Shown: in pieces, positions 4,590 to 30,253 of the stretch
How positions within the stretch are numbered: the stretch's first letter is position 1
Layout: every line of letters starts with the position of its first letter
DNA from: Spirochaetia bacterium
GTDB lineage: Bacteria; Spirochaetota; Spirochaetia; Sphaerochaetales; Sphaerochaetaceae
Assembly: GCA_022482625.1 (NCBI GenBank)
Contig: JAKVOU010000001.1
Coordinates: 1,722,784-1,786,783 of the forward strand
DNA: 64,000 nt
Direction: 5' to 3'
Position numbers and translations under genes: made by a program
Notes under the pieces: model-generated
Told to the model about the DNA's origin: nothing
Database searches by the model: none
The model's input: the letters and a program-made list of their open reading frames with translations, nothing else

Positions 4590-5780
4590 CTACCCTTTCA
4601 GCAACCATTCCAAGACATTGAGCTGTTTTATGCCGTTATATGACATCATCGGCGTATAGTCCATGGTGAGAAGATATTTGGGATTATGGTCCCTTATTGC
4701 ATCAAGCGGAGCAAGTTCCCGCTTCAAAGTCGACTCAGCCATTACCGTCTGTGCAACTTGATAGTATGAGGTTCCCTCTGAACCAATAGCAATGAAATCC
4801 ACTTCAGCATTTCCAACTTTTCCTATATGAATTTCATAACCACGTCGTAAAAGTTCAAGGTAAACAATATTCTCCAATATATGTCCCATATCCACCTGTT
4901 TTTGTCCTAGTATGAAATAGCGAAGTCCAATGTCTACCACATAGTATTTGGCTCCTGTCGCAAGGTACTGCTTTCCTTTTACATCATAGCGTCCCACTTT
5001 ATAGAGAATGAAACTGTCACACAGAGCGGAAAGGTAGCTCTCGACAGTTGGTACGCTAATCTTTCTCCCCTTCGATGCCATTGCATTGGCAATCTTAGAG
5101 GAAGAACAGAGGTTACCGATGCTGTCGAACATAAATTCCACTATATTCTGTAACATGGACGAATTGGATATATTTTTTCTAGTAATGACATCCTTGATCA
5201 AAATCGTATTGTAAACTCCTTCCAGATAGGTCCTTATATCTTGCTTTCTTATAAGTTCAAGAGTTCCAGGAAAAGAACTGTTCTGTAAGTAGTTCATATA
5301 CAACATCCCTGTATTGGTATCAGTAAACGCCGAAACATATTCTTTGAGGGAAAGCGGAAGCATCTTGATTTCTACATACCTTCCGGAAAGTAAGGTTGCA
5401 AGTTCCCCAGACAACAGAAAAGCATTGGATCCTGTGATATATAAGTCTACGTTTTTCTTTACATAAAGCCAGTCTACTGCTTCCTGAAAGTCTTTCACTT
5501 GCTGTACTTCATCTAGAAATACATAGTTCATTCTCTCCTTCTGCAGCCTGACTTCTACATAACGATACAGAGTTTCTGCCGTACGGATGTCACGATAGTC
5601 ACCATCTTCCAGATTGACTGCCAAAATCTGTTCATCCGCTATACCGATGGTTTTCAGATAAGCTTGGTACAGTTCAAGCATGGTTGATTTACCACAACGA
5701 CGGATTCCTGTCACGACTTTTATCAATTTCTTATCCTTGAAGCTTATCAAATCCTGAAGATATTCTTCCCTTTCTATCAT
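4590..5780 (-). CDS. AAA+ ATPase with DUF4143 domain (A)
   Basis: This 396-residue protein of the AAA_14/DUF4143 family has a Walker A at residues 24-33 (TGIRRCGKST), a Walker B-like VFLDEVQ, the sensor-like ITGSNA, and a C-terminal PD-(D/E)XK-like region (NAEVDFIA followed by a glutamine-containing strand). Families of this type are common in host-associated bacteria, often next to defence or mobile genes; their biochemical role is not settled. The start is fixed by an AAGGAG site and a good promoter at 5811-5839. It diverges from a second DUF4143 gene across a 307-bp spacer rich in inverted repeats. The frame is intact. The two paralogues are only distantly alike, so this is not a simple duplication. 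Confidence 0.88.
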   Translation of the reverse strand: MIEREEYLQDLISFKDKKLIKVVTGIRRCGKSTMLELYQAYLKTIGIADEQILAVNLEDGDYRDIRTAETLYRYVEVRLQKERMNYVFLDEVQQVKDFQEAVDWLYVKKNVDLYITGSNAFLLSGELATLLSGRYVEIKMLPLSLKEYVSAFTDTNTGMLYMNYLQNSSFPGTLELIRKQDIRTYLEGVYNTILIKDVITRKNISNSSMLQNIVEFMFDSIGNLCSSSKIANAMASKGRKISVPTVESYLSALCDSFILYKVGRYDVKGKQYLATGAKYYVVDIGLRYFILGQKQVDMGHILENIVYLELLRRGYEIHIGKVGNAEVDFIAIGSEGTSYYQVAQTVMAESTLKRELAPLDAIRDHNPKYLLTMDYTPMMSYNGIKQLNVLEWLLKG

Positions 5781-6087: not shown

Positions 6088-7362
6088 ATGCAAGAATACA
6101 AAAAACGTATTGCCGATGCACTACTTGCCGAAAAATTAGCAGGGAAAGGTGCAGTTTTGATAGAAGGTCCCAAATGGTGTGGCAAGACAACAACTGCAGA
6201 ACAGCAAGCAAAAAGTATCCTGTATATGGATGACCCCCAACGAGGAGCTACAAACCGTGTCCTAGCAGATGCAAATCCCCAATTACTTCTTGAAGGAAAA
6301 ACTCCAAGGCTTATTGATGAATGGCAGATTGCTCCGAAACTTTGGGATGTAATCCGCTTTGAGGTCGATCATCGCAGGGAATTTTCCCAGTTCATTCTTA
6401 CAGGTTCTGCAGTTCCTCCTTCAACGGAAGAAATTCACCATACAGGAACCGGCAGGTTTTCCTGGCTTAGAATGCGACCGATGAGTCTTATGGAATCCGG
6501 TGAATCAAACGCTTCCATTGGCCTTGGTTCATTATTTGAATCACCTGAGACTATTTATGCCGAAAACAAACTCAACCTGAACGATATCTGTTTTTTGATC
6601 TGTCGAGGCGGATGGCCACTTTCAACATATCTGGACGGAAAACTTGCTTTGAATCAAGCAAGAGATTATTTCGATGCTGTTGTAAACAGTGATATTTCCC
6701 GAGCGGATAATATCAGAAGGGATCCACAGCGGACTAAACGTTTGATGAGATCTTTTGCAAGACACCAAGGGCAACAAGTCGGCAATGCAACCATTTGCAA
6801 AGACATCAAAATAAATGATGTAGAATCCATAAGTCCGGATACCGTCCACTCATACATCGGAGCCCTGAAGAAAATATTCGTAATTGAAGATGCTCCCTCA
6901 TGGAATCCAAATCTACGTTCAAAGACAGCAATACGAACATCTGACACCCGCTATTTCGTGGACCCATCCATTGCCGCAGCTTCACTTGGATTCGGACCTG
7001 GAGATTTGGTTTCAGACATGGAGACCTGTGGCCTTATGTTTGAAACAATGGCTATCAGGGACCTACGGATTTATGCAGAAGCACTGGATGGTGCTGTATA
7101 TCATTACAGGGACAAGACCGGACTTGAATGTGATGCCGTAGTACATCTGCGAAATGGTTCATACGGCCTGATAGAAATCAAGATAGGCGGAGAAAAACTG
7201 ATTGACCAAGGTGCTACATCATTGAAGAAACTGGCAAATATCATCGATACGGAAAAAATGAAAAATCCATCATTCCTGATGATTCTTACAGCAACGTCTG
7301 AAATCGCATACAGACGGCCAGATGGCGTCTATGTAGTACCAATCGGTTGCCTCGGAGTATGA
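6088..7362 (+). CDS. AAA+ ATPase with DUF4143 domain (B)
   Basis: This 424-residue AAA_14/DUF4143 protein has a Walker A at residues 27-35 (GPKWCGKTT), a Walker B-like RLIDEWQ, FILTGSA, and a C-terminal PD-(D/E)XK-like motif in which GLECDAVV is followed by LIEIK. The retained acidic residues and lysine leave open a nuclease fold that is still catalytically complete, unlike gene A, where the last strand reads YYQVAQ. It diverges from gene A. A GGAGAGG site lies about nine bases before the ATG. The family has no firmly established function; roles in defence or in toxin-antitoxin-like behaviour have been suggested only from genomic context. Confidence 0.88.
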   Translation: MQEYKKRIADALLAEKLAGKGAVLIEGPKWCGKTTTAEQQAKSILYMDDPQRGATNRVLADANPQLLLEGKTPRLIDEWQIAPKLWDVIRFEVDHRREFSQFILTGSAVPPSTEEIHHTGTGRFSWLRMRPMSLMESGESNASIGLGSLFESPETIYAENKLNLNDICFLICRGGWPLSTYLDGKLALNQARDYFDAVVNSDISRADNIRRDPQRTKRLMRSFARHQGQQVGNATICKDIKINDVESISPDTVHSYIGALKKIFVIEDAPSWNPNLRSKTAIRTSDTRYFVDPSIAAASLGFGPGDLVSDMETCGLMFETMAIRDLRIYAEALDGAVYHYRDKTGLECDAVVHLRNGSYGLIEIKIGGEKLIDQGATSLKKLANIIDTEKMKNPSFLMILTATSEIAYRRPDGVYVVPIGCLGV

Positions 7363-7913: not shown

Positions 7914-9422
7914 TTGTTTTCAGACATCGATACAGTTGAAAACCTGATTCGTTCTGATGGTGGTCTGACATTACTGTCAAAGCGAAATGCAGCGTTCATC
8001 ATCTCTTTCCTTTCAGGAACCTTCAAGGAATATAATGAAGGAACCAGCAGTGCAATCGAACAGACTCATCTGGTCCAGCTCTTGGCTTCCTATATCACGG
8101 CAAACAAGGAAAGCAGGCAATACATCGATGATGGAGAACAACCAGAAGAAGGCACCTTGGATTGGGACAATCAGGCAAAAGCCCTTGCTATGATCAAATC
8201 ATGGTCAAGTCCTGAAAACAACTTCATATTCCGGTACTATGATGATATGCAACATGAAATGGTCGAGCTTTCGGCCGGTACAGAAAGACTGTTGCGCTAT
8301 CTGGATGAAGTCCAGGATTCCAAGAAACTTTTCGTAGGTACCGAATCACGCTTTGCACAGATCCTTACCATGTTCCAGCAACTTGATGAGAACACAATTG
8401 TCAATCCGAAGGCAAGGATTGACGAACTCGAAAGGAAAAAGCAACAGATAGACCGTCAGATCAAGGAAATCGAAGAGACAGGGCAAGCCACCACCTATAC
8501 CCAGCTTCAGGTCGCAGAAAGACTGCATGACCTTGAACGCCTGTCACAAGGACTGCTTGCTGATTTCAGGCAACTGAAAGACAACAACCATTTGATTTTT
8601 TCCGAACTATGCCACAGGCAACTGAAACCTACAGAAGACAGAGGGACACTCCTAGGCTATATCATCGACTCAACCGAAGCCTTGGAAAATTCCCCGCAAG
8701 GACAGAGTTTCACAGGATTCTGGAACTACCTCAGTGCCATGAGCAGCGGCGATTCCCTCGCATCGAAAGCTACTTTGATCCGGGAAAGAATGCCTGAACA
8801 GAAAATAAACATGGATTTCTTTTCTCACTTGGAAGAATCCCTTTACCAAGCAGGAAAATCAATCCTTGAAGAAAATCATCTCCTTTCTGAAAGACTGAAG
8901 AAAGTCATCACACGCAAGAATACTCCTGATTACCAGCTGATCGCGAGCTTGATCAGGCAAATCAAGACCTTGGCCGTAGATCCGAAAGTCCAGCTTCCCA
9001 AGTCCTCTGAACCCTTCCTTTCCATGGATGACAAGGTATATCTGAACGGGAACATGGCACGGCCCCCGATTCTTCCTCCGCTCAAGAGTGAAGCAACGGA
9101 TGAATATCTTATCGTAGATCCACCGAAGATTGACCTTGCAGAACTGGTTGCTGATATACATATCGATGAGGAAGAATTGCTGAATATCCTAGAAGAGGAA
9201 AGGAAAAAAGCCACAAGAGAAGGTCGTGGCCTTACAATTCAAGATATCCTTACACGTCATCCTCTACGCTATGGATTTGCAGAGTTGATCACCTATCTTG
9301 CCATTCTTTTCAAAGTTCCTTGGTGTCAGGTGCATGATGATGAACAGGACAGTATCTGTTATGAAAATGAAGAAGGGCAGCATATACGGCTGCATATACC
9401 GAAAGTGGAGATTTTGACATGA
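7914..9422 (+). CDS. jetA: Wadjet subunit JetA (DUF3375, kleisin-like)
   Basis: This 502-residue protein matches the DUF3375 family: an N-terminal region beginning with a short SGGL-like segment, a central coiled coil (about residues 160-230, rich in ELERKKQQIDRQ-type heptads) and a C-terminal winged-helix-like part. JetA is the MukF-like kleisin that links the JetC SMC heads in type I Wadjet, a system known to cleave closed circular plasmid DNA. The start is a TTG, chosen because GGAG lies seven bases upstream and no ATG fits. The jetB start overlaps its stop codon (ATGA). The order jetA-jetB-jetC-jetD is complete here and all frames are open. Confidence 0.93.
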   Translation: MFSDIDTVENLIRSDGGLTLLSKRNAAFIISFLSGTFKEYNEGTSSAIEQTHLVQLLASYITANKESRQYIDDGEQPEEGTLDWDNQAKALAMIKSWSSPENNFIFRYYDDMQHEMVELSAGTERLLRYLDEVQDSKKLFVGTESRFAQILTMFQQLDENTIVNPKARIDELERKKQQIDRQIKEIEETGQATTYTQLQVAERLHDLERLSQGLLADFRQLKDNNHLIFSELCHRQLKPTEDRGTLLGYIIDSTEALENSPQGQSFTGFWNYLSAMSSGDSLASKATLIRERMPEQKINMDFFSHLEESLYQAGKSILEENHLLSERLKKVITRKNTPDYQLIASLIRQIKTLAVDPKVQLPKSSEPFLSMDDKVYLNGNMARPPILPPLKSEATDEYLIVDPPKIDLAELVADIHIDEEELLNILEEERKKATREGRGLTIQDILTRHPLRYGFAELITYLAILFKVPWCQVHDDEQDSICYENEEGQHIRLHIPKVEILT

Positions 9423-10042
9423 ATGAAAATGACATTTTAAGTGACAGCAAAAGCTGGGGAGACCTATGCGTCCGTCTGATAAAGGGACCGATATTCCAAG
9501 ATGACACCCCTGATGTCTTTTCAAAAATTGTAACATGGAAAAACCAAATCGATGCCTACCTGCATGTAATCGGCTTGACGCTTGTCCTCGATACCACTGA
9601 TGATTACGCATATCTGGCCCAACTTGAAGATGAAGAAGGAAACGTAAAGGGATCATTGCAACGGTTGATGATCCGCCATCCTCTTTCCTATGAAGCATCT
9701 CTTATCCTTGTCATCCTAAGAGAAGAACTTGACAAGATGGATGCAGGAGAAAAGCATGATTTCGGTGCCATACTCAAGGAAAGCCAAATAGCAGAACTGG
9801 TAGAACCTTATTACGATCAGACAATGGACCGTATCCGTTACAAGAACATCATTGCATCAAATCTCAATATTTTGGAAAGCATGGACCTTATCAAACAAAT
9901 CAAGCGACCAACGGAAGGAACCCTGCCACTGGGACAGGACCGGGAATACTTGCTCCGTCCATTGATCAGAGCAAAAGTAAGTGCACAGTTCATGAATGAT
10001 TTCAAACTCAGGCTTGAAAAACGCAAGGAGGAAGAAGCATGA
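9419..10042 (+). CDS. jetB: Wadjet subunit JetB (DUF4194, MukE-like)
   Basis: This 207-residue DUF4194 protein is the usual size for JetB, the KITE/MukE-like winged-helix subunit that binds the JetA kleisin in the Wadjet condensin-like complex. Features seen are the acidic N-terminus, the VKGSLQRLMIRHPLSY segment and the C-terminal basic, coiled tail (RLEKRKEEE). It overlaps jetA and jetC by four bases each (ATGA), so translation is coupled. It has no catalytic motif, as expected for a structural subunit. Confidence 0.92.
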   Translation: MNENDILSDSKSWGDLCVRLIKGPIFQDDTPDVFSKIVTWKNQIDAYLHVIGLTLVLDTTDDYAYLAQLEDEEGNVKGSLQRLMIRHPLSYEASLILVILREELDKMDAGEKHDFGAILKESQIAELVEPYYDQTMDRIRYKNIIASNLNILESMDLIKQIKRPTEGTLPLGQDREYLLRPLIRAKVSAQFMNDFKLRLEKRKEEEA

Positions 10043-13000
10043 GCAACGACTTGGGACTGGACTTCGGACAAAAACATTCAGGTTATCGGCTTTCCTATGC
10101 ACAGATGTTCAATTGGGGTACCTTTGACCGTCATATTGTCACAATGGAAGTCGGAGGCAAAAATGCACTGCTCACAGGCTCCAATGGTTCAGGCAAGACG
10201 ACTCTGGTCGATGCATTGCTGACACTTCTGGTACCTTCTCAATTCAGGACATACAACCTTTCTTCCGGCATAGAAGGTAAAACAGGCAGGAATGAAGAAA
10301 GCTATGTACTGGGTGCATATTCAACCAGCAAGGATGAAGATGCCTATGCAGCTACCCATAGGTGCTTACGAGACCAAAGTTGCCACAGTATTCTCCTTGC
10401 CTGTTTTACAAATACGACAGCGACGACACCGCTGACACTGATGCAGATAAGGTATTTCTCGACACAAGGGATATTGCAACGCAAATATTTCCTTATCGAA
10501 GGTAGCATGACAATTGAAATGATCAAGAAAAAAGATGCCGGGTATAAACCAGGCACAAACTGGATCGATAATTTCAGAAATACCTTCAGGGAACTCAACA
10601 TCTTTGTCTATGATACATTCAAGGCTTACTGCAATGACTTTTCCCGACGCTTTGGCTTCCGTTCATCAGAAAAAGCTTTGAGAATCCTTGGACAGACCGT
10701 CGGCATGAAAGATTTGATGGATCTCAATGACTTCATACGGACAAAGATGCTCGATGAAGAGGATATCGGCTCCAATTTCAACAGTATCTTGGAAAACTAT
10801 CAGAACCTCATAGGTCTGAAAGATACCATTGACAAAGAAGAATACCAAATCAAGCAACTAAAAGAAATAAACCGATTCGGAAAAATCTATCTGAAGGCAG
10901 ACGAACACTACAAAGCGCTGCAGTTCCGTCGCGATACAGTGGCTTTGGTATGGCAGGCAAAAGCAAAAGTCGAACTTTGCCAGCAAAAACTGCAAAAAGA
11001 AGAAGAACAGCAACGTAGGGATATTGCAAAACAAATAACAATTGAAGAAAGCCAGGAGAGAATCAAGAAAGAAATAGAATCTATCCAGGCCACGCTAGCT
11101 TCTGATGAGCGGGAAACACAAATAAACAACCTGAAGGCTACCAGATACGAAAAGAACCGCAGACTTGAAGACTCAATACGTCCCAACAGGCATAGCTATG
11201 AAGATTGGGCCAAAAAGACATCACTTCAGATTCCACAGGACTTCGACAGCTTCCAAGCGAATAAAAAAGAGGCCTGTGCGCAAAAAGAAAAACTTTCGAC
11301 ACAGATTGCAGAAAGCGAAATTGAAAAGCAGGACTTCATAGTACAACGAGCCAAGCTGCAGGAAGTACTTGGTAAGATTGAACAGAGACTGCAGGCTTTG
11401 CAAATGAGAAAAAGCAACATGAGCCTTGAATACCTGCAACTGAGAGAGCAACTGGCAGCAGACACAGGTCTGGAGCTTAATCAATTGCCTTATCTTGGAG
11501 AATTGGTCCAAGTAGCAGCCAGTTGTCCTTACAATCGCACGGCAATTGAATCCATCATTGCTCCTCTTGCCCACATACTTCTGATATCGAAGGAAAACCT
11601 GCCTAAGATAATCGGATGGTTGGAAAAGCATAATCTGGAAGAAGCAGTCGAAGTCTGTACGGTACGTCAGGATTCCAAAGGTCCTTCAGCTATCAGGATA
11701 AGCAAGGAAGAAATTGAAGACAAAGAAGCCATAACCTTGAACCAACTGTTGGAAACAAAGGCAGACTGTCCGTTCCGCAAGGACCTCCAGAAACTATTGA
11801 AATCAAAACTCCATCTTGTCTTGGCAGAAGATCCTGTCTTCCTCTATGAAGGCAATGACAAATTCACGGCAGACGGCTTGGTTCACCAAGGACAGACCTA
11901 TGGCAAAGGCATTACGTCAGAAGAAAAAGACATACACATCACCGGTTGGGATATTGAAGAGAAGAAATCCCGGCTTGTTGCCTCCTCTGAAGAACTGAAC
12001 AGACAGATTGCCGATATCAACCGGCAGTATGAATTGCTCCAGAACCGCCTGCTCGCACAGCAAAGCAGACAAGAAGCTTTCTCCAGAATCCTTGAGTTTG
12101 TCGATTATAAACAGATTGACTGCAATGAAATCGAAACTGAAATTGCTACGCTTGACAGTCAGATAGAAGCCTTGTTGGAAGAAACGAAAGATCTGGAATC
12201 CTTAAGAAAGAAAATCGAAGAGCGTAGGGAAAAGGAACAGGAACTGGGCAATGAAAGGGACAAGCTGCTGAAAAGCCTCGGTAGACTGGAAGACAGTATC
12301 TTGCAACATAGGCAGATAGCTGAAGACAACAGGCATATCCTTGAGGAAAAAAAGGCAGGTTCTCTCCAGGATGCCATAGCAGAACTTGTTACAGCTTACA
12401 TGCTTCCGCAACAATTTCAGGAATTCCCAACACTCAAGGATTGCTATGATTCACTTGAAAAGAACATAAACAGCCAGATTGACAGCGTCACACGAGAACA
12501 GTCGGAAGCCCGTGGTAAAACTGTCGGTCTCATGGGAGAATTCAAGAAACCCAAGGAACAACGTTTTTCAACATGGGTAAGCGATGTAAATGATCTCGTC
12601 GTAGAAATCGGTGCACTGCCTGCTTACCAAGCCATGCTTGACAGACTGCAGAAGGAGGACCTTCCCAAATATAAGGAACAGTTCGGCAGGATGCAGGCAG
12701 ACAAAGTCAAGAAAGATATCCAGGACCTTAACATCTGTCTCAACAATTGGGAAAAGAAGATTGCAAGGAATATCAGCGAATTGAATGACAGCCTTTCTGA
12801 TATTACCTATGCAAAAAACCCTTCGACACGGATTCAGCTTGTCATGTCCACTGCACGGGACAAGGACATCAAGGAATTCAAATCCTTGCTCTCAAAGGCA
12901 CTTCCGGATGTCGGTATCGGAGCCAATACGGATGCCTCCGCTGCAGAACGTGCAAATACCTTGTTCCTTGAAGCTGTCCAGGCACTTGTTGACCGCCTGA

Positions 13001-13461
13001 AGAATGATGCATTGTTCAGAAACAAAGTCCTTGATGTACGTCGCTGGCATGATTTCGCAGCTGAGGAAACAGACATACAGACAGGAAAGCAGATACGGTT
13101 CTACCAAGACAGTGAAGGTATCAGCGGCGGGCAGAAAGCAAAGCTTGCCTATACCATCATGGCAGCCGCCATTGCCCATCAGTTTGATGTCTTTGATTTC
13201 GACAACGAAACAAAATCCTTCCGGTTTGTCATCGTAGATGAAGCTTTCAGCAAGAGTGACGATGAAAATTCCCGATATGCCATGAATCTCTTTGCAAAGA
13301 TGGACCTGCAGCTGATGGTGGTTACACCGATGGACAAGGTCAATCTTGTAGAACCTTTCATTGAAAATGTACAGGTAGCTGTCTGTGATGACGGCAAACA
13401 TTCCTATCTGCACAATATTTCCAAAGAAACCTTGGAAAATGCAAAGCAAGGACAGACATGA
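10039..13461 (+). CDS. jetC: Wadjet subunit JetC (SMC/MukB-like ATPase)
   Basis: This 1140-residue SMC-like ATPase is the motor of the Wadjet complex. The N-terminal head has a Walker A at residues 47-54 (GSNGSGKT). Long coiled coils span roughly residues 255-470 and 640-1000 around a hinge-like middle. The C-terminal head has the ABC signature SGGQKAKL near residue 1028 and the Walker B FVIVDEAFSK near 1063. All catalytic motifs look intact. In characterised Wadjet systems JetC extrudes DNA loops and senses small circular DNA for cutting by JetD. Four-base overlaps join it to jetB and jetD. Confidence 0.94.
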   Translation: MSNDLGLDFGQKHSGYRLSYAQMFNWGTFDRHIVTMEVGGKNALLTGSNGSGKTTLVDALLTLLVPSQFRTYNLSSGIEGKTGRNEESYVLGAYSTSKDEDAYAATHRCLRDQSCHSILLACFTNTTATTPLTLMQIRYFSTQGILQRKYFLIEGSMTIEMIKKKDAGYKPGTNWIDNFRNTFRELNIFVYDTFKAYCNDFSRRFGFRSSEKALRILGQTVGMKDLMDLNDFIRTKMLDEEDIGSNFNSILENYQNLIGLKDTIDKEEYQIKQLKEINRFGKIYLKADEHYKALQFRRDTVALVWQAKAKVELCQQKLQKEEEQQRRDIAKQITIEESQERIKKEIESIQATLASDERETQINNLKATRYEKNRRLEDSIRPNRHSYEDWAKKTSLQIPQDFDSFQANKKEACAQKEKLSTQIAESEIEKQDFIVQRAKLQEVLGKIEQRLQALQMRKSNMSLEYLQLREQLAADTGLELNQLPYLGELVQVAASCPYNRTAIESIIAPLAHILLISKENLPKIIGWLEKHNLEEAVEVCTVRQDSKGPSAIRISKEEIEDKEAITLNQLLETKADCPFRKDLQKLLKSKLHLVLAEDPVFLYEGNDKFTADGLVHQGQTYGKGITSEEKDIHITGWDIEEKKSRLVASSEELNRQIADINRQYELLQNRLLAQQSRQEAFSRILEFVDYKQIDCNEIETEIATLDSQIEALLEETKDLESLRKKIEERREKEQELGNERDKLLKSLGRLEDSILQHRQIAEDNRHILEEKKAGSLQDAIAELVTAYMLPQQFQEFPTLKDCYDSLEKNINSQIDSVTREQSEARGKTVGLMGEFKKPKEQRFSTWVSDVNDLVVEIGALPAYQAMLDRLQKEDLPKYKEQFGRMQADKVKKDIQDLNICLNNWEKKIARNISELNDSLSDITYAKNPSTRIQLVMSTARDKDIKEFKSLLSKALPDVGIGANTDASAAERANTLFLEAVQALVDRLKNDALFRNKVLDVRRWHDFAAEETDIQTGKQIRFYQDSEGISGGQKAKLAYTIMAAAIAHQFDVFDFDNETKSFRFVIVDEAFSKSDDENSRYAMNLFAKMDLQLMVVTPMDKVNLVEPFIENVQVAVCDDGKHSYLHNISKETLENAKQGQT

Positions 13462-14624
13462 TCGATAGCCAGGGAATCATAAGAAAGGCAAAGAATAAAT
13501 TTGACAGCTACCTTGCTGCCATCATCAATGAAAACGTAGATGAAGTCGTTCCATGGACAATACGTTGCAGCAAGCAACCGGGAAGTGCTGCTGACGAGGC
13601 AGAAGCAGCTTATGTGGAACTTGGGACACATTGTAAGGACAAGCTTGGTCAGGGCTATACCCTTGAGCTAAAAAAGGTCAAAGGCCAGACACGAATCAAA
13701 GAAATCCGAGTTGATACGCCTGAAGATCTGTCGTTCCTTTGTGGCTGCAGCAAGGAAACTGCAATATTCAAGGAAACAATTGCAGCATTCAAGGAAATGT
13801 TCCCAGATGAACGGACCGTTGCATGGTTGCTTGAAAACAGAAAAATGCTATTCAAATGGACAGCTGACCAACGAAACAGGTTCCTGGACCTTGCATGTTA
13901 TCTCCACGATCATCCGGATTCAGGCCTTTACCCTCGAGAACTTCCGGTCAAGGTGCCTACGAAATTCCTTGAACAGCATGCAGGAATACTTGTCTCTTTC
14001 CTTCAGATATTCGGCCCTCTCAGGACAGGTACTTCAGATTTGTCCAAGCTTGGACTTCTGGACAGAGATTTTACTTTGCTTGCCAGAGCCTACGCTCCTT
14101 TTACCCTTGTTCTCAACGATGCTCCCATATTAAGAACTACGGTCGCAAGCCTTACCCTTGATGAACTGGAAACCTGTACCTACCAGTTCAACGCTATTTT
14201 TATTCTTGAAAACGAAACGACTTTCAGATCTTTTCCGATTCCGAAGAACTGCCTGGCTCTTTATTTCGGAGGATTTGCAATCGGACGTATCCCAAAGGAT
14301 TTTTCATTCTTCAGCAACGCAAAGGTCTTTTATTTCGGTGATTTGGATGAACATGGGTTTGCCATACTTTCACTATGCAGAAGCAGATGTCCCAATACCC
14401 AGTCTTTCTGCATGGATAGACTGACACTATCCAAGTTCAACCGATATAGAAGCAAGGGAGAAACATGCAAGGAACCTGTCGACGGCCTGACAGATGAAGA
14501 ACGCCAGACCCTTGCCTTGCTTAAGGCTGAACCGAAAAGGAACCGGTTGGAACAGGAAAAGATAAGCAAGGAATGGGTGCTGGCAAGGCTTGAAAAGGAA
14601 AAAGTATTTACAACAGCTATTTAG
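13458..14624 (+). CDS. jetD: Wadjet nuclease subunit JetD (DUF3322/DUF2220, Toprim fold)
   Basis: This 388-residue protein with N-terminal DUF3322 and C-terminal DUF2220 domains is the topoisomerase VI-like nuclease of Wadjet. Toprim-type acidic residues are visible: a glutamate in IFILENET near residue 250 and the DxD pair in FGDLDEHG near residue 295. These are the metal-binding residues expected for DNA cleavage. The start codon overlaps the jetC stop (ATGA). No further gene follows on this strand, and convergent secreted-protein genes begin 57 bases downstream. Confidence 0.92.
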   Translation: MIDSQGIIRKAKNKFDSYLAAIINENVDEVVPWTIRCSKQPGSAADEAEAAYVELGTHCKDKLGQGYTLELKKVKGQTRIKEIRVDTPEDLSFLCGCSKETAIFKETIAAFKEMFPDERTVAWLLENRKMLFKWTADQRNRFLDLACYLHDHPDSGLYPRELPVKVPTKFLEQHAGILVSFLQIFGPLRTGTSDLSKLGLLDRDFTLLARAYAPFTLVLNDAPILRTTVASLTLDELETCTYQFNAIFILENETTFRSFPIPKNCLALYFGGFAIGRIPKDFSFFSNAKVFYFGDLDEHGFAILSLCRSRCPNTQSFCMDRLTLSKFNRYRSKGETCKEPVDGLTDEERQTLALLKAEPKRNRLEQEKISKEWVLARLEKEKVFTTAI

Positions 14625-14681: not shown

Positions 14682-15542
14682 TCAATAAAGTAAAGGCCTA
14701 ATCTTTGTCGTATAAAATTTTTTATAAAATAGTTCTTCTCTTAACAAAAATGGCACAGATTTGGACATTTCAGAAAGTAGCTGCTGAGCATTTTCTGATT
14801 TATCATTTAAGGCATAAATAAGATTAGGATATTTTTTTATCTTTGAACCAAACAATATCTTAATATGATGTGTTAAATCAGGTCGCAGCTCTTCCATAGT
14901 GCTCCTCGTTTGCGCAGTCTTTTCAGAATTATTTTCAATATCGCCTAGTAAATGCACATAATACAATAATGCAGCCATACTATCAATTTTATTTCCAAAT
15001 GATTGAATAAAACTAGAAATCCAAGAAACCTGTGTTTTATTAATTGTAGCCTCTTTACAGGCAAATTTATACTTTGATTTTGATAACAAATCAAAATCAA
15101 ATACTTTCACTAAGGTATCTGTCAATAGTTTTTTTCTTTTTAACCATTGCGGTTGAACATAAAAATCGTATTTATCAGTATAGTCATAGTCCCATCCCAT
15201 ATGAGTATACTTTTCGTGATAAGGTCCCCCTTTTACACCACTACTCAGTTCCTCTAAGGAAGGTAAAAACTCTACTCCACCATCCTGTAAGGTTACTAGG
15301 GCTCGCGTACCAGCATAACGAGAAGATAGAGTAAAATCTGTAGTTAAATAAACTGCGTCACAAATCATTTCAATCTCTCGAACACGACTTTTTACGATCC
15401 TATAATAATTCCTATCACCGATTAGCATACTACATATATCTTTATCATGCTCATCTCGTGACTTAGCTCCAAGATTAAAAAGAAAGCAAAATACTAATAA
15501 AAAAAATAAAAATCTAGTTTTTTTATGATTAAAATGAATCAT
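14682..15542 (-). CDS. Secreted protein of unknown function
   Basis: This 286-residue protein has a clear N-terminal export signal: a basic start HKKTR, then a very hydrophobic LFFLLVFCFLFNL. No recognised domain is certain. The segment YYVHLLGDIENN near residue 200 loosely resembles the HxxGD helix of zinc phospholipase C/S1-type folds, but this is only a hint. The start overlaps the stop of the upstream secreted-protein gene (ATGA), so the two form an operon. Codon use and base composition are far more A+T-rich than the Wadjet genes, suggesting separate acquisition. With its partner interrupted by an IS, its expression may be lost or driven from within the element. Confidence 0.7.
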   Translation of the reverse strand: MIHFNHKKTRFLFFLLVFCFLFNLGAKSRDEHDKDICSMLIGDRNYYRIVKSRVREIEMICDAVYLTTDFTLSSRYAGTRALVTLQDGGVEFLPSLEELSSGVKGGPYHEKYTHMGWDYDYTDKYDFYVQPQWLKRKKLLTDTLVKVFDFDLLSKSKYKFACKEATINKTQVSWISSFIQSFGNKIDSMAALLYYVHLLGDIENNSEKTAQTRSTMEELRPDLTHHIKILFGSKIKKYPNLIYALNDKSENAQQLLSEMSKSVPFLLREELFYKKFYTTKIRPLLY

Positions 15543-17329
15543 AAAATATTGCTCAACAGAAATTTACCATTTCTTTCTTTTATAAAGGAAAACGTTAAAA
15601 ATTCATTACCCGTTGTAATTCTAACCGTATAGCCGTAACCATAATTTTCTGCTTTATAATTTTTATTATCTCCAAAAATGGTTGTAATAGTATTTCGTCC
15701 CAATCTATTGACATTCTGTAAAATATTTTTAATTGTCTTTTTTCTAAGGCCATCAACTGGAATTATTATTTTTGCTCTGAAATTCTGTAAATCTGTGTCA
15801 TTTTTTTCTCTTTCAATCATAATTTTTTTGGGAACAACTCTATAAAGATTGTCTTTTTCATCTAATCCCTTTATTTCAATTTTACTATCACTTGCAATGA
15901 AAGTAGCAGGTAAAGTCAAAACTAGAGAATTCCGTAAAGGATTAGTTTTAAGGTTAATACCAGATTTTGAAGGAAGCACATTAAACAGACTATGAAGTAA
16001 TTGGGGAACTATAAGTGACTGTTTGATTATCTGGTTAATTTTATAAATTTCATCTTGAGAAGATTTTTCTTCTCTTTGTATTTGTAAAAGAAACTGTATA
16101 TTTTGCAAATAAGCAGGGCTTAATGGAGGAAGTTCATGTTCTCTTGATTTTATCAATTGCTTATAGTCTTTTTCTACTGCATCTCGTCGCTCTTTTGTCA
16201 TTGCTTTTAATTTTTTCTCTGGAATTTTTTTAACTGGCATAACATAGGTCTGCAAAGAATTTTCTTGTTGTTTAGATAGTTCAATAATATTTGACCGCAC
16301 TAATACGTATGCTTTATCTATACAAGCGTTCTTATCAGAAAAATCATCTGAAGCTATTGATAAATAAGTCACAGCACAAAAATACCGTTGTAACCAATCA
16401 TCATTACTAGTATTGTCAAGAATCGTCTGTAACATTTGCAATATGGTTGCATGATATTTGACAGGATCATTACACACATATCCAAAAGCAACAACACCAC
16501 GAGTTAAAGCCTGCCCAAACTTAATATCTTTCCTATAAATATGATCATTATTGACAAGATTTTTATAGCTTTTCAAAGCATCCAGACAACCTTGATATTT
16601 GCCATTTTCATAATATGTTTTAGACAATGCTAACCAATAATCAGGTAATTTCGCATAAACTGCCTGATTATCAAGTAGCCATTGTAATCGTCGAACAATT
16701 ATTTTATCATTAGTATTTTTCACAAATTCGGAAAGAGATTCTTGACTAAGAGAATCAGTTTTATTCAAATTCCCCGCATTTGTCTGATAGATTATGTAAT
16801 CAAAAATACTTTCATTCAAATTATGGATTGTTGCTCTTTCTTGATCATCTAGTTTCCAATTCTTTTGCATAAATTCCAAATCTATAGAATCTTTAGCTGC
16901 GGCATAACTAGAAACAGAAGAGGATGCTGTACCAACAACAGCAACAATAGCTCTTAAAGGATCACGAATCATATAAGACATACCCATAATACTTATAGGC
17001 GAAGGAATTGCTTGCTTTATGGCTTGTGTTTCTTCATGTTCATATAAAATTTGAAGCCTTTGTCGCTCAATATCTGTAATTCGAAAATTTTCAATATCAT
17101 CTAGTAATTCATGAATATAAAATTGGGTTGTTTCATCTATTATGGAAGGATCATAATTATTTAAAAGTGATGAATATATATCATCAAGCATAAGACGATT
17201 GTCCTGTTCCTCTAATACCTGATTTGCCGTTAAAGTCAACTGATTTAATAAAGCTAAAGAAATATCAGAAGAATCTTTTGTATATCCCTTCATTAAGGAT
17301 ATAGCACCTAAAACTATAAACATTATAAT
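15539..17329 (-). pseudogene. Secreted repeat-like protein gene, 5' end cut off by IS copy B
   Basis: A 594-codon open frame from an apparent ATG at 17323 encodes a helical protein with a TPR-like middle (LSKTYYENGKYQGCLDALKSY) and a beta-rich C-terminus. I do not recognise the family. The ATG has no ribosome site because IS copy B lies seven bases upstream. If the IS and one TAAT duplicate are removed, the frame continues into 18951-18972 and gives a TTG start with N-terminus MKKFKCI joined to IMFIVLGAI, a proper signal peptide, with GGGA seven bases before the TTG. The gene was therefore probably whole and secreted before the insertion. It is translationally coupled to the 14682-15542 gene. 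Confidence 0.72.
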
Positions 17330-23197: not shown

Positions 23198-24163
23198 TTA
23201 CCTATTTTTCTTTCTCTTGTTAACCGACCGTTTATTTCCTGAGTACCCAGTAGTAGCTTCTTTCTTCAACTTCTCTATTTGGGCAATCTGTTTCTCATCC
23301 ATCCATGTAGGCAACAATTTATCGACCCATTGGTTCTGCTTGCCTCTATGAATCAAGTAATAATAGCCATAAAAGGAAAATACTATTGCTCCGATAAAAT
23401 TGACGAACAGATCTTTCATTGTATCAATCAGACCGATGTCAAGATAACCGTTGATAGGCAGTACGGTACCATTGACACTTGTCTGGGATATATCGGAAAC
23501 ATGTACTACCTGCATACCCTTCGAATCCAATGCAACAGAATTGATCGTATGGATAATCATATCTTTCTGCATATCTGTTCCTGTAAACTGGTCCATCAGA
23601 AATTCAACGAATTCCCATAAGACCCCCAGTGTCATTGAAAAACAAAATCCAGTAAAAACAACGAACATAGGAGATACCTTGAATGAAAATTTCTCATTCC
23701 GATTGAACAAATCAATGAGGGAAAACCCAACTGCTGCCATAACAAAGCCATTGATCGCATGCAATGCAGTATCCCAGAAAGGTACCAACAGGTAAAAGGA
23801 ACCAAGCTCACCGAGAATTGCAGAAGCAAATACGGAAGCCATGATCAGTATTTCCAACGTATCCGGTACATCAAGATGATAATTTATTTCGACAAAAGCT
23901 GGCAAAATGAAAACGATAAGTGTCAATATACATATGAACACACTTTCATAGGATCCTTTGAACAGGCTAAAGATCAGGACAGCTACAACAATACTGCGAA
24001 GCAAAAAATAAAATATTGCAGTTCTTTTGTGTTCATGAAACTGACGGAAAATTCCAAGATGCATCAGGTTCAATCGTCTGATTGGTTTCGATTCCTCTGT
24101 CCTGATGTCTTTTTCCCCAGTCTCCCCTGTTCCGTGCTTTTTGTCATCATGTTGCTTTGGCAT
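23198..24163 (-). CDS. Multi-pass membrane protein (DUF2238-like), overlaps the helicase gene
   Basis: This 321-residue protein has a charged N-terminal tail (~40 residues), about six hydrophobic segments and a basic C-terminal tail (KRSVNKRKKNR). The WDTALHAINGF and GVLWEFVEF segments resemble DUF2238/YjdF-type membrane proteins; function is unknown. I chose the ATG at 24161-24163 because GGAG lies eight bases upstream. A longer frame to 24223 has no ribosome site. Even so the gene overlaps the last 94 bases of the helicase gene in another frame, an unusually long overlap, which ties its translation to the defence-type operon. Whether it is a functional part of that operon is open. Confidence 0.75.
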   Translation of the reverse strand: MPKQHDDKKHGTGETGEKDIRTEESKPIRRLNLMHLGIFRQFHEHKRTAIFYFLLRSIVVAVLIFSLFKGSYESVFICILTLIVFILPAFVEINYHLDVPDTLEILIMASVFASAILGELGSFYLLVPFWDTALHAINGFVMAAVGFSLIDLFNRNEKFSFKVSPMFVVFTGFCFSMTLGVLWEFVEFLMDQFTGTDMQKDMIIHTINSVALDSKGMQVVHVSDISQTSVNGTVLPINGYLDIGLIDTMKDLFVNFIGAIVFSFYGYYYLIHRGKQNQWVDKLLPTWMDEKQIAQIEKLKKEATTGYSGNKRSVNKRKKNR

Positions 24164-26340
24164 CTTTGTTTCTCCATAAGCCTTCCAAGCCCTTTCTTCA
24201 TACCAGCAGGATCGTAAGCCCAAGTCACATAGGCTTCTTTCCGCAGTTCCATTGGCAAAAGTGTATCATATTTGAAATTACCCCGCATGGCTTGTTCATC
24301 CACATCAAGTTCCATCAAGTCAACGGGAGCATATCGGATTGCTTCCAAAGCTGTCCGAACTGCCTGCTCCGTCAAAGCTCCACGACCTTCTACGGCAAGG
24401 CAGAAATCATCTTCCATGATTGCGTCGATGCCGCGGCTCTTGAAACAGGCAGAAAGACAAGCAAGAGACCGACTGCCAAGCCAAGGATAAATTCTTACCA
24501 TATCCCTTTCAATCCGTACAACTACATCATTGCCGATACCAAGGGAGCGATAACGTTCACGGGCCTTACCCAGATAATCAACAGCACAGGGATCAAGATA
24601 AGGATAGCTTTCATCACTATCCAGAATTTCCTTGATCTTTACAAGGATCCTGTCGTCGACTTGCAGGCTACCGTTCCCTTCCCATTTGGCATAACCACCT
24701 TTTCCATCGGAAACAACAAATGCAATCATCCTGTCATAGTCTATCTCGGTAATTTTCCATTTGTAGCCAGAAAGTACAATCCTGTCCCCTTTCCTAAGGT
24801 CTCTTCCGACTGTCCCAAGGACCTTGTCTTGGAATTTGATAGTCATCTCAGGCATGACGAGAAAAACCGAATAAAAGTCATAGAAAGAAACCAGCTCTTC
24901 TCCCCGTTCTCCAAGATTTATCGTGCCATCTTCCATTGTCTCAAGCAGTTTTTCATCCAGCATACCATGCAATAGAGTACGGTAAGCATCAATAGTTATG
25001 GCCCTGAAAGGACTAAGGGTAAGTATATGGCGGGCAAGAGACTGTACCGAAAGTGCTCCCAAGCTCCTCAAAACTGAAAGAGTCTGATGCAGAGCAAGGA
25101 AATAACATTTTTCCAAGGGATGCACCGGCTCAATCCAATGCTCCTTCAGGTAAAGTTCAATAGTTGCAATCGTAGAAAGAAGATCAAAAGGCAAATAGGT
25201 AGGATCCGCTTTCCAGACAGCATCCCGACGTTTGAGAACAAAAGCCATATTACGATTCTGACCCTTACGTCCCGTCCGTCCTAACCTCTGGACAAAAGAA
25301 GAAACAGAAAGCGGAGCTCCTGTCTGTACAATCATATCCAAGGAGCCGACATCAATGCCAAGCTCAAGCGTTACCGTTGCTCCCACACACACAGAACCGG
25401 GATGGTTCTTCAATGCGTCTTCAGCTTCTCCTCGCTGCAAACGGCTCAATGAGCCATGATGGGCAAAGACCTCAAGGCAATTCCCACGGGCAGCCGACAT
25501 GTCATGCAAGCCGGCAACCGCAAATTCCACTTCATTCCTGGTATTTGCAAAAACGATGGAACGATGTCCTTTTACGAGGTGATAAAGTACTTCCATCCAT
25601 GGCTGTGTGGTATCGACGATATCGTTTTCTTCTTTCCGGATATATGGACATTCCTTCACCAAGAGATTGAGCTTACCCCCTGCGGCTCCAGAACTACAGA
25701 CTATACAGTCGAGTCCATTTCCTGCTTCCAACCATTTTGAAGCTTCGTCATAATCAGCAAGCGTAGCAGAAAGTCCGATATGTCGCACAGGATGACCAAT
25801 CATCTGTGCTATCCTGCCGATCAGCGATTGTACTTGCAGGCCTCTTTCACTGCCCATGAATGCATGGACTTCATCAATGATGATATAACGTAGATCACCG
25901 AACAACCGCCTGCAATGACGGCTTTCTCTGATCAGGAGAGCTTCAAGGGATTCCGGTGTAATCTGAATGATACCCTGAGGATGTGCAATAATCCTTTTCT
26001 TTGCGGAAGCAAGGGCTTGTCCATGCCATCGGACTATAGGCAGTTCCTCTTCTTCCAAGATATCCTGCAACCGTTCGAACTGATCATTGATCAATGCAAT
26101 CAAAGGGCTGATATACAGGACTGCTATGGTCGATGAAGGATGCATTTCCAAGTCACTGAGCACAGGAAAGAAAGCAGCTTCGGTCTTGCCGCTTGCAGTT
26201 CCGCTTGTCAGCAACACATTGTGCGATTCCGTAAGAATGGCAGGTATCGCCTTTTCTTGTATTTCCCTTAAGTCCATCCATCCTTTTTTATAGATATATT
26301 CCTGAATGGTCGGAGAAAGTAATTCATATGCCTGTTCCAT
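24070..26340 (-). CDS. Superfamily 2 helicase, Lhr/BrxHI-like
   Basis: This 756-residue helicase has DEAD/DEAH-box motifs in order: Walker A SGTASGKT (46-53), TPES near 128, DEVH (156-159), SAT (191-193), and motif VI QRLGRTGR (351-358), followed by an Lhr-like C-terminal domain. Helicases of this kind occur as BrxHI in BREX-related clusters and next to BrxD-type ATPases. Here it follows the BrxD-like gene with a TGATG stop/start overlap. All motifs look intact. The C-terminal end is encoded in DNA shared with the next membrane-protein gene. It probably unwinds DNA or RNA/DNA hybrids in a defence context (inference from neighbours). Confidence 0.88.
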   Translation of the reverse strand: MEQAYELLSPTIQEYIYKKGWMDLREIQEKAIPAILTESHNVLLTSGTASGKTEAAFFPVLSDLEMHPSSTIAVLYISPLIALINDQFERLQDILEEEELPIVRWHGQALASAKKRIIAHPQGIIQITPESLEALLIRESRHCRRLFGDLRYIIIDEVHAFMGSERGLQVQSLIGRIAQMIGHPVRHIGLSATLADYDEASKWLEAGNGLDCIVCSSGAAGGKLNLLVKECPYIRKEENDIVDTTQPWMEVLYHLVKGHRSIVFANTRNEVEFAVAGLHDMSAARGNCLEVFAHHGSLSRLQRGEAEDALKNHPGSVCVGATVTLELGIDVGSLDMIVQTGAPLSVSSFVQRLGRTGRKGQNRNMAFVLKRRDAVWKADPTYLPFDLLSTIATIELYLKEHWIEPVHPLEKCYFLALHQTLSVLRSLGALSVQSLARHILTLSPFRAITIDAYRTLLHGMLDEKLLETMEDGTINLGERGEELVSFYDFYSVFLVMPEMTIKFQDKVLGTVGRDLRKGDRIVLSGYKWKITEIDYDRMIAFVVSDGKGGYAKWEGNGSLQVDDRILVKIKEILDSDESYPYLDPCAVDYLGKARERYRSLGIGNDVVVRIERDMVRIYPWLGSRSLACLSACFKSRGIDAIMEDDFCLAVEGRGALTEQAVRTALEAIRYAPVDLMELDVDEQAMRGNFKYDTLLPMELRKEAYVTWAYDPAGMKKGLGRLMEKQRCQSNMMTKSTEQGRLGKKTSGQRNRNQSDD

Positions 26341-27689
26341 CAGAGTGTAAATGTGGAGAATTCATCTTCCGGCCCTTGCCCTTCACCTGCCATTCCAGAC
26401 TCATCATCCTTCAGTGGTTCAGCATAAGTAAAACCACTGCCTGACATGATTGACTGGACGGAGTCCCCTGGATTCTGCAATAACAGATTCATAAGCTCAA
26501 TGAAATCACGTATGATTTCTCGCGGAGTAAGCCTGTCAGCAGCACCGACACGCCCTAGTTCACAGCCAAGGAAGAACCGAATCTCTTCTGCAGAAAAATG
26601 CCTTCCTGTTGAAAAAAGATCGGCATGCAGCATACTCAGCCTTTCCATAAGAACAAAAAGTTCTTCTCCTGACAGTTTCTTTATCCTGATGATAGGAGAA
26701 AGCAAATCCTTCATGTCTTTCGTAGCCAAACGACCTGTTTCCAACCGCGACCGAAGAGCCTCATAGCTGAATACACCTCTTCTGGTATCTTCGACGCTTT
26801 TTGGTGTTGCACCCATCAGAATTCCAAGATAGCTTGCTTTTCCCTGAAGTGTATCATTGTACATCGCGAGCAATTTCTCATAATTATTCTGTCGGCTTAT
26901 CTTGTTGGATATCTTATACAGGTTGATCATTTCATCAATGAAGACAAAGGTACCCTTATAACCTGCCTGCTGACAGAAAACAGCCAGCAACTTGATATAA
27001 TCATACCAGTCCTTGTCCGTAATCACCAACGAAATGCCCAAATCAGTTTTTGCGTCCCTCCGATATTGGTATTCTCCCCGAAACCAACGAAGCACCTTGT
27101 CCCTAAGGTCATCATTTCCATCCCTATACGCCCTATAATAAGTAAGTAGCAAACCTGCAAATTCATACCCATGAACCAATTGTCGTATATCTGCACAACG
27201 GGAATAAATCTGCTGTTCCATCTCTTTGTCAAGCTCAGCGTCCACAAAACCCTTTGCCTTCGCCTCAAACAACAACTCATTAATCCATTTGTCCAAGACC
27301 AAAGGCAATGCACCACCTTCCGGATGTGCCGCAGTGGAAAGGTTCCTTACCAATTCCCTGTAAGTAGCAAGGCCTTCGTCATGAGTACCTACAAGCTTAC
27401 GATCCGGGGAAAGGTCCGCATCCATGACGACAAAGCCTTTCTTGGTGACATGGCTGCGAATGATGGAAAACAAAAAACTTTTCCCTGCTCCAAACGGACC
27501 TTCTATAAAACGAAAAGTGGCCCCACCGTCTTCGATAATTTCAACATCCCTTAATATGGCTTCAAGCTCTTCTGTTCTGCCGACGGCAATATACTCTGCA
27601 CCATCCCGAGGTACAACGCCGCCTCTCAGGGCATTCATCAGCCTGTTTGCAATCCTCTTAGGAGGCATCTTGAATTCGGCATCACTCAT
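26340..27689 (-). CDS. BrxD-like P-loop ATPase (DUF2791)
   Basis: This 449-residue ATPase has a Walker A at 64-71 (GPFGAGKS), a Walker B at 248-253 (FVFIDE) and an N-terminal RIANRLMNALRGG motif characteristic of the BREX ATP-binding family DUF2791 (BrxD). In type 2 BREX, brxD and brxHI accompany pglWXYZ; none of those are present here. Instead the gene sits between a TerB-N/TerB-C protein and an Lhr-like helicase, a small cassette noticed in comparative genomics of Ter-related stress systems. Its start overlaps the upstream stop (ATGA). The C-terminus is acidic. Confidence 0.87.
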   Translation of the reverse strand: MSDAEFKMPPKRIANRLMNALRGGVVPRDGAEYIAVGRTEELEAILRDVEIIEDGGATFRFIEGPFGAGKSFLFSIIRSHVTKKGFVVMDADLSPDRKLVGTHDEGLATYRELVRNLSTAAHPEGGALPLVLDKWINELLFEAKAKGFVDAELDKEMEQQIYSRCADIRQLVHGYEFAGLLLTYYRAYRDGNDDLRDKVLRWFRGEYQYRRDAKTDLGISLVITDKDWYDYIKLLAVFCQQAGYKGTFVFIDEMINLYKISNKISRQNNYEKLLAMYNDTLQGKASYLGILMGATPKSVEDTRRGVFSYEALRSRLETGRLATKDMKDLLSPIIRIKKLSGEELFVLMERLSMLHADLFSTGRHFSAEEIRFFLGCELGRVGAADRLTPREIIRDFIELMNLLLQNPGDSVQSIMSGSGFTYAEPLKDDESGMAGEGQGPEDEFSTFTL

Positions 27690-29344
27690 AATTTCCCCTG
27701 CTCCTTGACCAGTTCTCCGATTCTTCCACGATACTCATCCAACACACTGTTGTCTTCAATCAGCACATCATCATATATTGTAAGAGCTTTCTCATTGATT
27801 TGTTCAACCATAAGATTAAGCATCAGCCCATGGGAACGACAGAAGGCATCGGCCATCTTATCATCACCACCGCATAAGTAGCTGACTACCTGCGTCTCAT
27901 CAGGAGTGAAGGCTTTAGCCAGTGCCTCAAGAGAATCTGAAACAGCAGCAGGTAAGAAAGATCCTTCTTCTGTAAACTTGTTTTTCCCTTTTGCAGTTCC
28001 TTCAGGCAGAGGAAAGGAATGGGTATCCTTCAATTTCAAAAAATAAGTACGTGCCTCCTCTGGCTTTTCCTGTTCTGTTTTTTTGACGGTTTCTTCATCT
28101 TCGACAATCAATCTGTCCTGAATAACTGCACTATCTTTCCTTATCTCTGCTACATTCTCCAGGTTGATGCTGAATTCACAGACATGTTTTCTAGCTTTCA
28201 ATTCTTCAGGTGTCAGCCCATAGGCCTTCTTTGCATAGGGATGTTCAGATACCCATTGCATGACAACCTTGAGCATCGTATCCTGGTTCTTTTCCCTTCG
28301 GCCAGCATAGTAAGCAAAGTAGCTGTCATTTTCGCGTTGTGAAAAATTCTCCAATATATTACGAGGTCCCCCACAACAGTAGGTAAGTACTTTTCCCAAC
28401 AATTGTAGGTATATCCTGCAGTTCTCTGTACAGTCATACGACAAGGACATCACTACCTCTCGTAAACGTCCATTATGTACCTCATAGGTAACCTGATCAT
28501 CCATTGGAATAGAAAAATCAGGTAATACAGGAAAATCAACATACAGTGGCTTTGCTCCCTCACAAGGAGATCCTGCATCTTCCATTGCAAATAATTCACT
28601 TGAATCATTGAGATACCCCAACGAACCATAAAACCCTTCTGAAATGCATGGAACCGCCAAATCAAGATAGCATTCTTCCATTAGAAAAAGAATAGCCGAG
28701 TCAAAGCATTGATCCTTCAAATGAAGTACTTTATAAAGGTAGGAAAAACTAATAATATTTTCTCTTTGGGAAACAGTTTCAGGAAACAACTGCATATCTG
28801 TTTTTTTCTCAAGTCTGTTCAGTTCTTCAGATTGTCCGCCATAAAGAAAATACAGGTTACGATATGCAGACAACAGGAATCTCTTCATCTTGCTTTTCCC
28901 CACTGCAGGCAACAGCAACTGAAACGCCCGATCTAATTCTTTTTCGATATCGGCAGTGTTCCTGGAATATATGCCATTCAAAATTTCCATCAAGTAAAGA
29001 CTGATGAAAAAAGAATCAGGATAGGTCGGAGAAATCCCTTTTCTCAACGCAGTTCTGAAACCAAAGTATGCTACTAGATTTGCACGCTCAAGAAGGAAAT
29101 ACTGCGGACAGAACTTTGTCTTCGAAGTTAATCCCTTGACAGGTTTTTCCTTTTCAAAATCGATGCTTGCCAAATAGAAAGCATCGGATATAAAGCGAGC
29201 AATGCTCTTTTTCCGTTCGTTTCCCAAAGTCGTAAGCTTTGTTTTCCATTTGCCTGAAAAACTACTGGCTGTACGGAATGATTGGTATGACTGTATCCTG
29301 GACATATAGCCACTGATGATGGAATCAAGCGTCTGTTCATTCAT
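27686..29344 (-). CDS. TerB-N / TerB-C domain protein
   Basis: This 552-residue protein is from the ATG at 29342-29344, preceded by GAGGAAAGG; a longer frame to 29419 has no ribosome site. The first ~300 residues form a helical TerB-N-type region. The last ~100 include EALAKAFTPDE and end in QINEKALTIYDDVLIED and DEYRGRIGELV, the typical TerB-C finish. No full TerB core was recognised between them. Proteins of this architecture are linked by gene neighbourhood to BrxD-like ATPases and helicases and may scaffold or sense in a membrane- or metal-linked stress/defence complex (inference). It is the first gene of a tightly overlapping operon. Confidence 0.75.
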   Translation of the reverse strand: MNEQTLDSIISGYMSRIQSYQSFRTASSFSGKWKTKLTTLGNERKKSIARFISDAFYLASIDFEKEKPVKGLTSKTKFCPQYFLLERANLVAYFGFRTALRKGISPTYPDSFFISLYLMEILNGIYSRNTADIEKELDRAFQLLLPAVGKSKMKRFLLSAYRNLYFLYGGQSEELNRLEKKTDMQLFPETVSQRENIISFSYLYKVLHLKDQCFDSAILFLMEECYLDLAVPCISEGFYGSLGYLNDSSELFAMEDAGSPCEGAKPLYVDFPVLPDFSIPMDDQVTYEVHNGRLREVVMSLSYDCTENCRIYLQLLGKVLTYCCGGPRNILENFSQRENDSYFAYYAGRREKNQDTMLKVVMQWVSEHPYAKKAYGLTPEELKARKHVCEFSINLENVAEIRKDSAVIQDRLIVEDEETVKKTEQEKPEEARTYFLKLKDTHSFPLPEGTAKGKNKFTEEGSFLPAAVSDSLEALAKAFTPDETQVVSYLCGGDDKMADAFCRSHGLMLNLMVEQINEKALTIYDDVLIEDNSVLDEYRGRIGELVKEQGKL

Positions 29345-29467: not shown

Positions 29468-30253
29468 ATGAAACTGGCACTTGCAAAAAGGAATGAAGAG
29501 GACAGGATAAAACAGTTCTGGAAAGACAATCTCGCCGGAAATACACTACTGCTGGATAAATTCTTTGAAGCCAGAAGGGAAATTGACCATTGCTATATTG
29601 CAAAAGATGAAAACGGAAACATACTGAGCATGCTGCACTGTCTCCAACAGGGATTTACCAGGGAAATGCATACGACACCAACGGCTTACATCGTCGGTGC
29701 AGCAACAAGACCTGATTACCAGCGGCAGGGATTGATGAACGATCTGCTGGAACTGGCATATACCGAAGAACACAAGATATTGACGATCAATCCCGGATTT
29801 AATTCCTATTTCCTTCATCATGGATTCTATACTGCAGCACATATGGCTTGTTTCAGGCTTACCGGCAACAAAAACGGGGAATTGTGCAACGACAGCAAAT
29901 GTCCACTTGAAACAATCTATATAAATGCAACAGAAAAATCAGGAGCATTGGACCGAGACAGTTTTGCTTGGGATCTGCTCAAAGAAAGCATGTCCATTGT
30001 CTTTGCTGAAAGCAACAACGAAAAGGGATATGCTTTGGTAGCAGATGGCATAGCCTACGAAACCATGTGCGAGGGTCTTTGCAGTGCAAGGGCTCTGAAA
30101 GAAAAAATAGAACAAATGCCGATACAGCAGGTCTGGATGCCATCCGATTCGCCCATGGCATCCCTATTCGATCAAATTCCAGTACTCCTGCCGATCGGCA
30201 TGAGCAACGAAACATCAATCTGTGCAGGTGTATACATAGCACAGCAGCTTTAA
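29468..30253 (+). CDS. GNAT-family N-acetyltransferase
   Basis: This 261-residue protein has an N-terminal GNAT fold and a C-terminal extension. The acetyl-CoA binding loop is clear: RPDYQRQGLMNDLLELA near residue 90, preceded by the strand AYIVGAAT. The C-terminal part likely forms the second (sterol-carrier-like) half seen in Eis-type acetyltransferases. The start follows GAGAGGATAACA. It is divergent from the TerB/BrxD operon and convergent with apbE, with which it shares four bases at the stops. The substrate is unknown. Confidence 0.82.
   Translation: MKLALAKRNEEDRIKQFWKDNLAGNTLLLDKFFEARREIDHCYIAKDENGNILSMLHCLQQGFTREMHTTPTAYIVGAATRPDYQRQGLMNDLLELAYTEEHKILTINPGFNSYFLHHGFYTAAHMACFRLTGNKNGELCNDSKCPLETIYINATEKSGALDRDSFAWDLLKESMSIVFAESNNEKGYALVADGIAYETMCEGLCSARALKEKIEQMPIQQVWMPSDSPMASLFDQIPVLLPIGMSNETSICAGVYIAQQL

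Follow-up and report, generated by a model that had tools for sequence, protein, structure and literature searches.

The window, i.e. the whole stretch of 64,000 nucleotides analysed here, carries on its minus strand three adjacent genes, sngA, sngB and sngC, which are listed below together with the features that surround them.

4590-5780 and 6088-7362: two DUF4143 ATPases (PADLOC candidate PDC-S01)
7914-14624, plus strand: type I Wadjet jetABCD (PADLOC JetA-D), with homologues near sngC in the locus L016
14682-17323, minus strand: unknown pair of overlapping genes (286 and 594 amino acids), low in GC, for which neither Pfam nor NCBIfam gave a significant match
23198-24163, minus strand: multi-pass membrane protein as judged by eye, its start being probably at 24163 (321 amino acids)
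24070-26340, minus strand: sngC, SF2 helicase of the Lhr/BrxHI type (756 amino acids), with the motifs TASGKTEA, DEVH, SAT and QRLGRTGR
26340-27689, minus strand: sngB, AAA+ ATPase of the BrxC/BrxD family (449 amino acids), with the Walker A motif GPFGAGKS and the Walker B motif VFIDE
27686-29344, minus strand: sngA, protein with a degenerate TerB-N and a TerB-C but without the TerB core PF05099 (552 amino acids from the ATG at 29344)
29468-30253, plus strand: GNAT acetyltransferase, flanking sngA also in the loci L016 and L018 of the same genus (49-50% identity)

The open reading frame of sngA runs on past the ATG at 29344 up to 29419. The three genes are joined by overlaps, i.e. the 4-base ATGA between sngA and sngB and the 1-base TGATG between sngB and sngC, exactly as given in a preliminary description made from the letters of the window. 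They are long and conserved, have their motifs intact and are genuine genes, not chance open reading frames; the key glycines, the lysine and the DE of SngB are invariant in 17 sequences and the motif residues of SngC in 14, in line with the intact ATPase and helicase motifs noted at the outset.

Concerning the individual proteins, SngB matches the PADLOC profile SngB with 534 bits and the Pfam family PF10923 (BrxC_BrxD) with 471.6 bits, whereas SngC scores 663 bits with the PADLOC profile SngC vs. 438 bits with BrxHI, and carries, according to Pfam, DEAD and Helicase_C plus a weakly matched Lhr winged helix; the original domain reading—a BrxD-like ATPase and an Lhr/BrxHI helicase—thus holds. 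The assignment of SngA as a TerB-N/TerB-C protein holds for its C-terminal part, where TerB_C reaches 54.7 bits, above the Pfam cut-off of 26.3, but not fully for the N-terminal one, since the match of TerB_N (16.8 bits) remains below the cut-off of 25. The TerB core (PF05099) gave no match in this SngA in Pfam at E 1, the single copy in the genome being located ~290 kb away from sngA. SngA matches the PADLOC SngA profile with 99 bits (E 9.5e-29) in two stretches, the best one covering the positions 377-525 of 528, and the profile built from the C-termini of other SngA proteins with 1.8e-15. Its AlphaFold2 prediction, made together with three viral homologues, had a mean pLDDT of 37.8, and only the residues ~470-540 reached 60-75. 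Neither the operon nor any other SngA scanned showed a recognisable nuclease domain, which agrees with the preliminary view that a known effector is lacking.

Based on the profiles, the gene order and the homologues, the operon can almost certainly be identified as the anti-phage operon sngABC of Shango. All three proteins match the PADLOC Shango profiles best, SngB and SngC far above the BREX models, and the features of membership are present, i.e. the match to the SngA profile, the SngB with Walker motifs, the motifs of SngC and the adjacent order A-B-C. Shango comprises three genes, the products of which have TerB, helicase and ATPase domains; when cloned from Pseudomonas aeruginosa PA14, it cut the plating of many phages 10-100-fold and protected liquid cultures (PMC10250203); a second report, in E. 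coli, is known here from its citation in that paper. The PA14 system comprises the same three protein families and PADLOC profiles and is also found in defence-rich regions. The TerB core (PF05099), which PMC10952713 lists for Shango, is absent here; it should be pointed out, however, that it is present in some members only and was therefore not used as defining. The SngA of the E. coli and archaeal systems has 769-829 amino acids including the TerB core, whereas that of the window has 552 without it and with the degenerate TerB-N; a short SngA is known also from Paenibacillus and from relatives, and the copy in the window is thus not unique. The locus is thus an uncatalogued and rather divergent copy of an already known system. 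The stand-alone defence operon supposed at first was borne out in the form of Shango, but it is not a new minimal module, the set having already been named, and the link of its proteins to defence does not rest on gene neighbourhood only, Shango having been tested with phages (PMC10250203). With the operon named and its relatives tested, there is no need to chase it as a new system.

In order to describe the distribution, 33 loci—the window included and some of them closely related—were collected by their SngB. SngC is the direct neighbour of SngB in all of them except for L039, where it was not recognised, and L044, which reaches the contig end, while a gene for an SngA-like or TerB-N protein lies upstream of sngB in nearly all; the recurrent co-occurrence, proposed in the preliminary description as a check, was thus confirmed. 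Among the irregular loci, L024 has its SngA one open reading frame further upstream, and the contig end truncates L045. In L056 (1799-12619), from a plasmid of Burkholderia contaminans, sngB-sngC are preceded by an unrelated gene of 254 amino acids with an apparent N-terminal membrane helix, a TerB-N gene being located ~5 kb upstream. In L017 (G002:C26:9000-20430), belonging to the same genus as the window, sngB-sngC have no recognisable sngA upstream, the place being taken by methyltransferase-like and ferredoxin-like genes; the gene of 195 amino acids preceding sngB there was considered as a substitute for sngA and rejected, as it looks by eye methyltransferase-like and is separated from sngB by the ferredoxin-like gene.

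The loci include members of Bacillota, Pseudomonadota, Actinomycetota and a haloarchaeon, the order A-B-C being retained across bacteria and the archaeon, and the occurrence of Shango is patchy, with 10 of 150 relatives and, within the phylum, 13 of 393 genomes. Homologues of SngB were found on 691 plasmid records (449 from Klebsiella and 144 from Salmonella), 542 of which are predicted conjugative, the weakest among the matches listed being a BrxD of BREX; eight viral contigs carry Shango homologues, and no SngB was found in the INPHARED phage records. The tree distances of sngA, sngB and sngC agree with each other (rank correlations 0.84-0.92), so that the three genes travel as one unit.

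With regard to the surroundings, the island described preliminarily does contain Wadjet (JetABCD) and the two DUF4143 ATPases, but not McrC, since no match to McrBC/McrC (PF10117) was found anywhere in the genome of 3.47 Mb. Two transposase genes lie beyond the gene pair at 14682-17323, and this pair, positioned between Wadjet and transposase, may represent an uncharacterised unit of the island. From 30250 on, the genes scanned are ordinary ones (ApbE, glycerophosphodiesterase, tryptophan-type genes and transporters). The GNAT gene is found beside sngA in two congeners, and in one of these Shango is flanked by Wadjet at its opposite end; the site is thus a shared defence spot. At a threshold of 1e-25, 41 PADLOC profiles were matched in 100 proteins neighbouring Shango vs. 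14 in 100 proteins from arbitrary sites of six of the genomes; this defence enrichment, proposed in the preliminary description as a check, is modest and informal, given that several profiles match one protein and that one locus contains Wadjet. The neighbours include genes of Wadjet, Mokosh-like and AbiP2-like systems and type III methylases, and the Shango of a Roseobacter plasmid adjoins CBASS-type genes.

The homology to components of type 2 BREX offers another explanation, namely that the operon is a remnant of such a system keeping only BrxD and BrxHI. SngB is homologous to BrxD (132 bits) and SngC to BrxHI, the ATPase and helicase genes being adjacent in both cases and BrxD and BrxHI forming a tight pair in BREX (PMC12839542). 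The SngB and SngC profiles win, however, by wide margins, the NCBIfam model of BrxD giving SngB 134.7 bits, i.e. below its cut-off of 350; no PglZ (PF08665) was found across the genome, and none of PglX, PglW and BrxC among the neighbouring genes scanned. Moreover, the same three-gene set exists without BREX genes in many lineages, and its conserved partner SngA contradicts a remnant, so that this explanation is hardly credible and the early statement that the locus is not BREX stands. A role other than immunity, in stress response (tellurite-type) or in DNA repair (Lhr-like), is also very improbable. It would fit the TerB-type domains, which take their name from tellurite resistance, as well as the closest solved relatives of SngC by sequence—5v9x and 7lhl, annotated as ATP-dependent DNA helicases and presumably Lhr—which have the helicase core in common with SngC, the Lhr-type winged helix being detected in the latter weakly. 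It is opposed by the patchy spread, by the homologues on plasmids and viral contigs and by the defence genes near Shango. SngC differs from Lhr also in that it may form a clade of defence helicases together with BrxHI, DruE and DpdJ (PMC12278908), and the anti-phage activity of the family has been measured (PMC10250203).

The membrane gene at 23198-24163 was considered, already in the preliminary description, as a possible partner, and could make the operon a four-gene variant of Shango with this protein as the missing effector, i.e. a pore. It lies on the same strand, overlaps the 3' end of sngC by ~94 bp, has a plausible ribosome-binding site and encodes a product that is multi-pass by eye. 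In the other loci compared, however, sngC is nowhere followed by a homologue of it, and the next gene varies, so that the membrane partner was not supported. Its family was found in 53 of 150 relatives, most of which lack Shango; three genomes that do carry Shango, G031, G060 and G086, encode it on a different contig, and it occurs on plasmids of other organisms. The gene is a real open reading frame, but, because its family is located elsewhere in the relatives, it is, as judged from sequence comparison, a bystander outside Shango, and the four-gene variant has only a slight chance of being correct.

A Shango anti-phage operon is very probably the best explanation overall. As to the mechanism itself, the favoured model—held with somewhat less than even confidence—is that SngB would load or activate SngC on invading DNA under the control of SngA. 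It is drawn by analogy with BrxD, which has been classed as ORC-Cdc6-like and proposed as a possible loader of BrxHI on DNA (PMC12839542). An oligomer of SngB, as a BrxC/BrxD-type AAA+ protein, would thus act on the DNA helicase SngC, while SngA may confer specificity or licensing, with a constant TerB-C end that probably attaches it to the SngBC motor and a variable front that would recognise the phage or position the complex; the translocation or unwinding by SngC might then block the replication of phage DNA or open the DNA to host nucleases. A point against the overall explanation is the locus L017, with SngB-SngC but without recognisable SngA, and no paper resolving the steps of the Shango mechanism was found in the literature search. 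A likeness can also be seen to Hachiman (HamAB), in which a DNA-surveying defence helicase has a smaller partner protein; HamA is, however, a nuclease, whereas no such domain was seen in SngA, and HamB is Ski2-like and groups apart from SngC (PMC12278908).

Judging from the sequences compared, SngA is the fast-evolving subunit of Shango. Across 22 loci pairwise identity averages 20% for SngA, 48% for SngB and 40% for SngC, SngA being the least conserved in all 231 of the 231 pairs; between the window and its genus it is 23% for SngA and 65% for SngB, compared with the 49-50% of the flanking GNAT gene. In the trees, distances are 2.6 times as large for SngA as for SngB, and SngA also has the higher dN/dS (0.12-0.46 vs. 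0.04-0.12) in six of six close pairs, which are not independent, three of them being among L021-L023. Relaxed constraint can explain this fast evolution too, dN/dS staying below 1.

The long SngA with TerB-N, TerB and TerB-C is found in E. coli, Bradyrhizobium and the haloarchaeon, the short one without the TerB core in the relatives, Paenibacillus and the window; in other full SngABC loci, including that of Paenibacillus, the short SngA matches the profile over most of its length. The front of SngA contains a TM2 domain in the archaeon, and one group of relatives has a PSPTO_3016-like domain there. The position of SngA in L015 (9327-9926) is occupied by a coiled-coil-like protein of 199 amino acids, which aligns solely to the final third of the profile (positions 340-527) and is a possible minimal SngA; the PADLOC SngA gives it 1.8e-7, whereas its match to our own C-terminal profile was not significant, with a full-sequence E of 3.6 and a best domain of 0.0041. 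The C-terminal end is the most widely shared part of SngA, and the whole pattern fits a protein that docks by a constant end and recognises by a variable one. One may go further and regard SngA, rather speculatively, as a swappable recognition subunit, the TerB-C of which would dock on the conserved loader-helicase motor and the lineage-specific fronts of which would set the phages sensed, the genus of the window then holding an extreme TerB-free branch; the fronts would, again with considerable doubt, be TerB-N (accompanied by TerB or lacking it), membrane helices, the PSPTO_3016-like domain, or a coiled coil only. The fast evolution of SngA, its common TerB-C end and its often missing TerB core show the experimenter what to swap or mutate first.

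Apart from Shango and far from it, two adjacent genes for ATPases of the BrxC/BrxD family (400 and 395 amino acids; 80 and 97 bits), among the scanned neighbours of which no helicase or TerB gene was recognised, were observed in L004 at 8601-10992 (G000:C1 ~3093600-3095992), beside an unknown gene of 257 amino acids.
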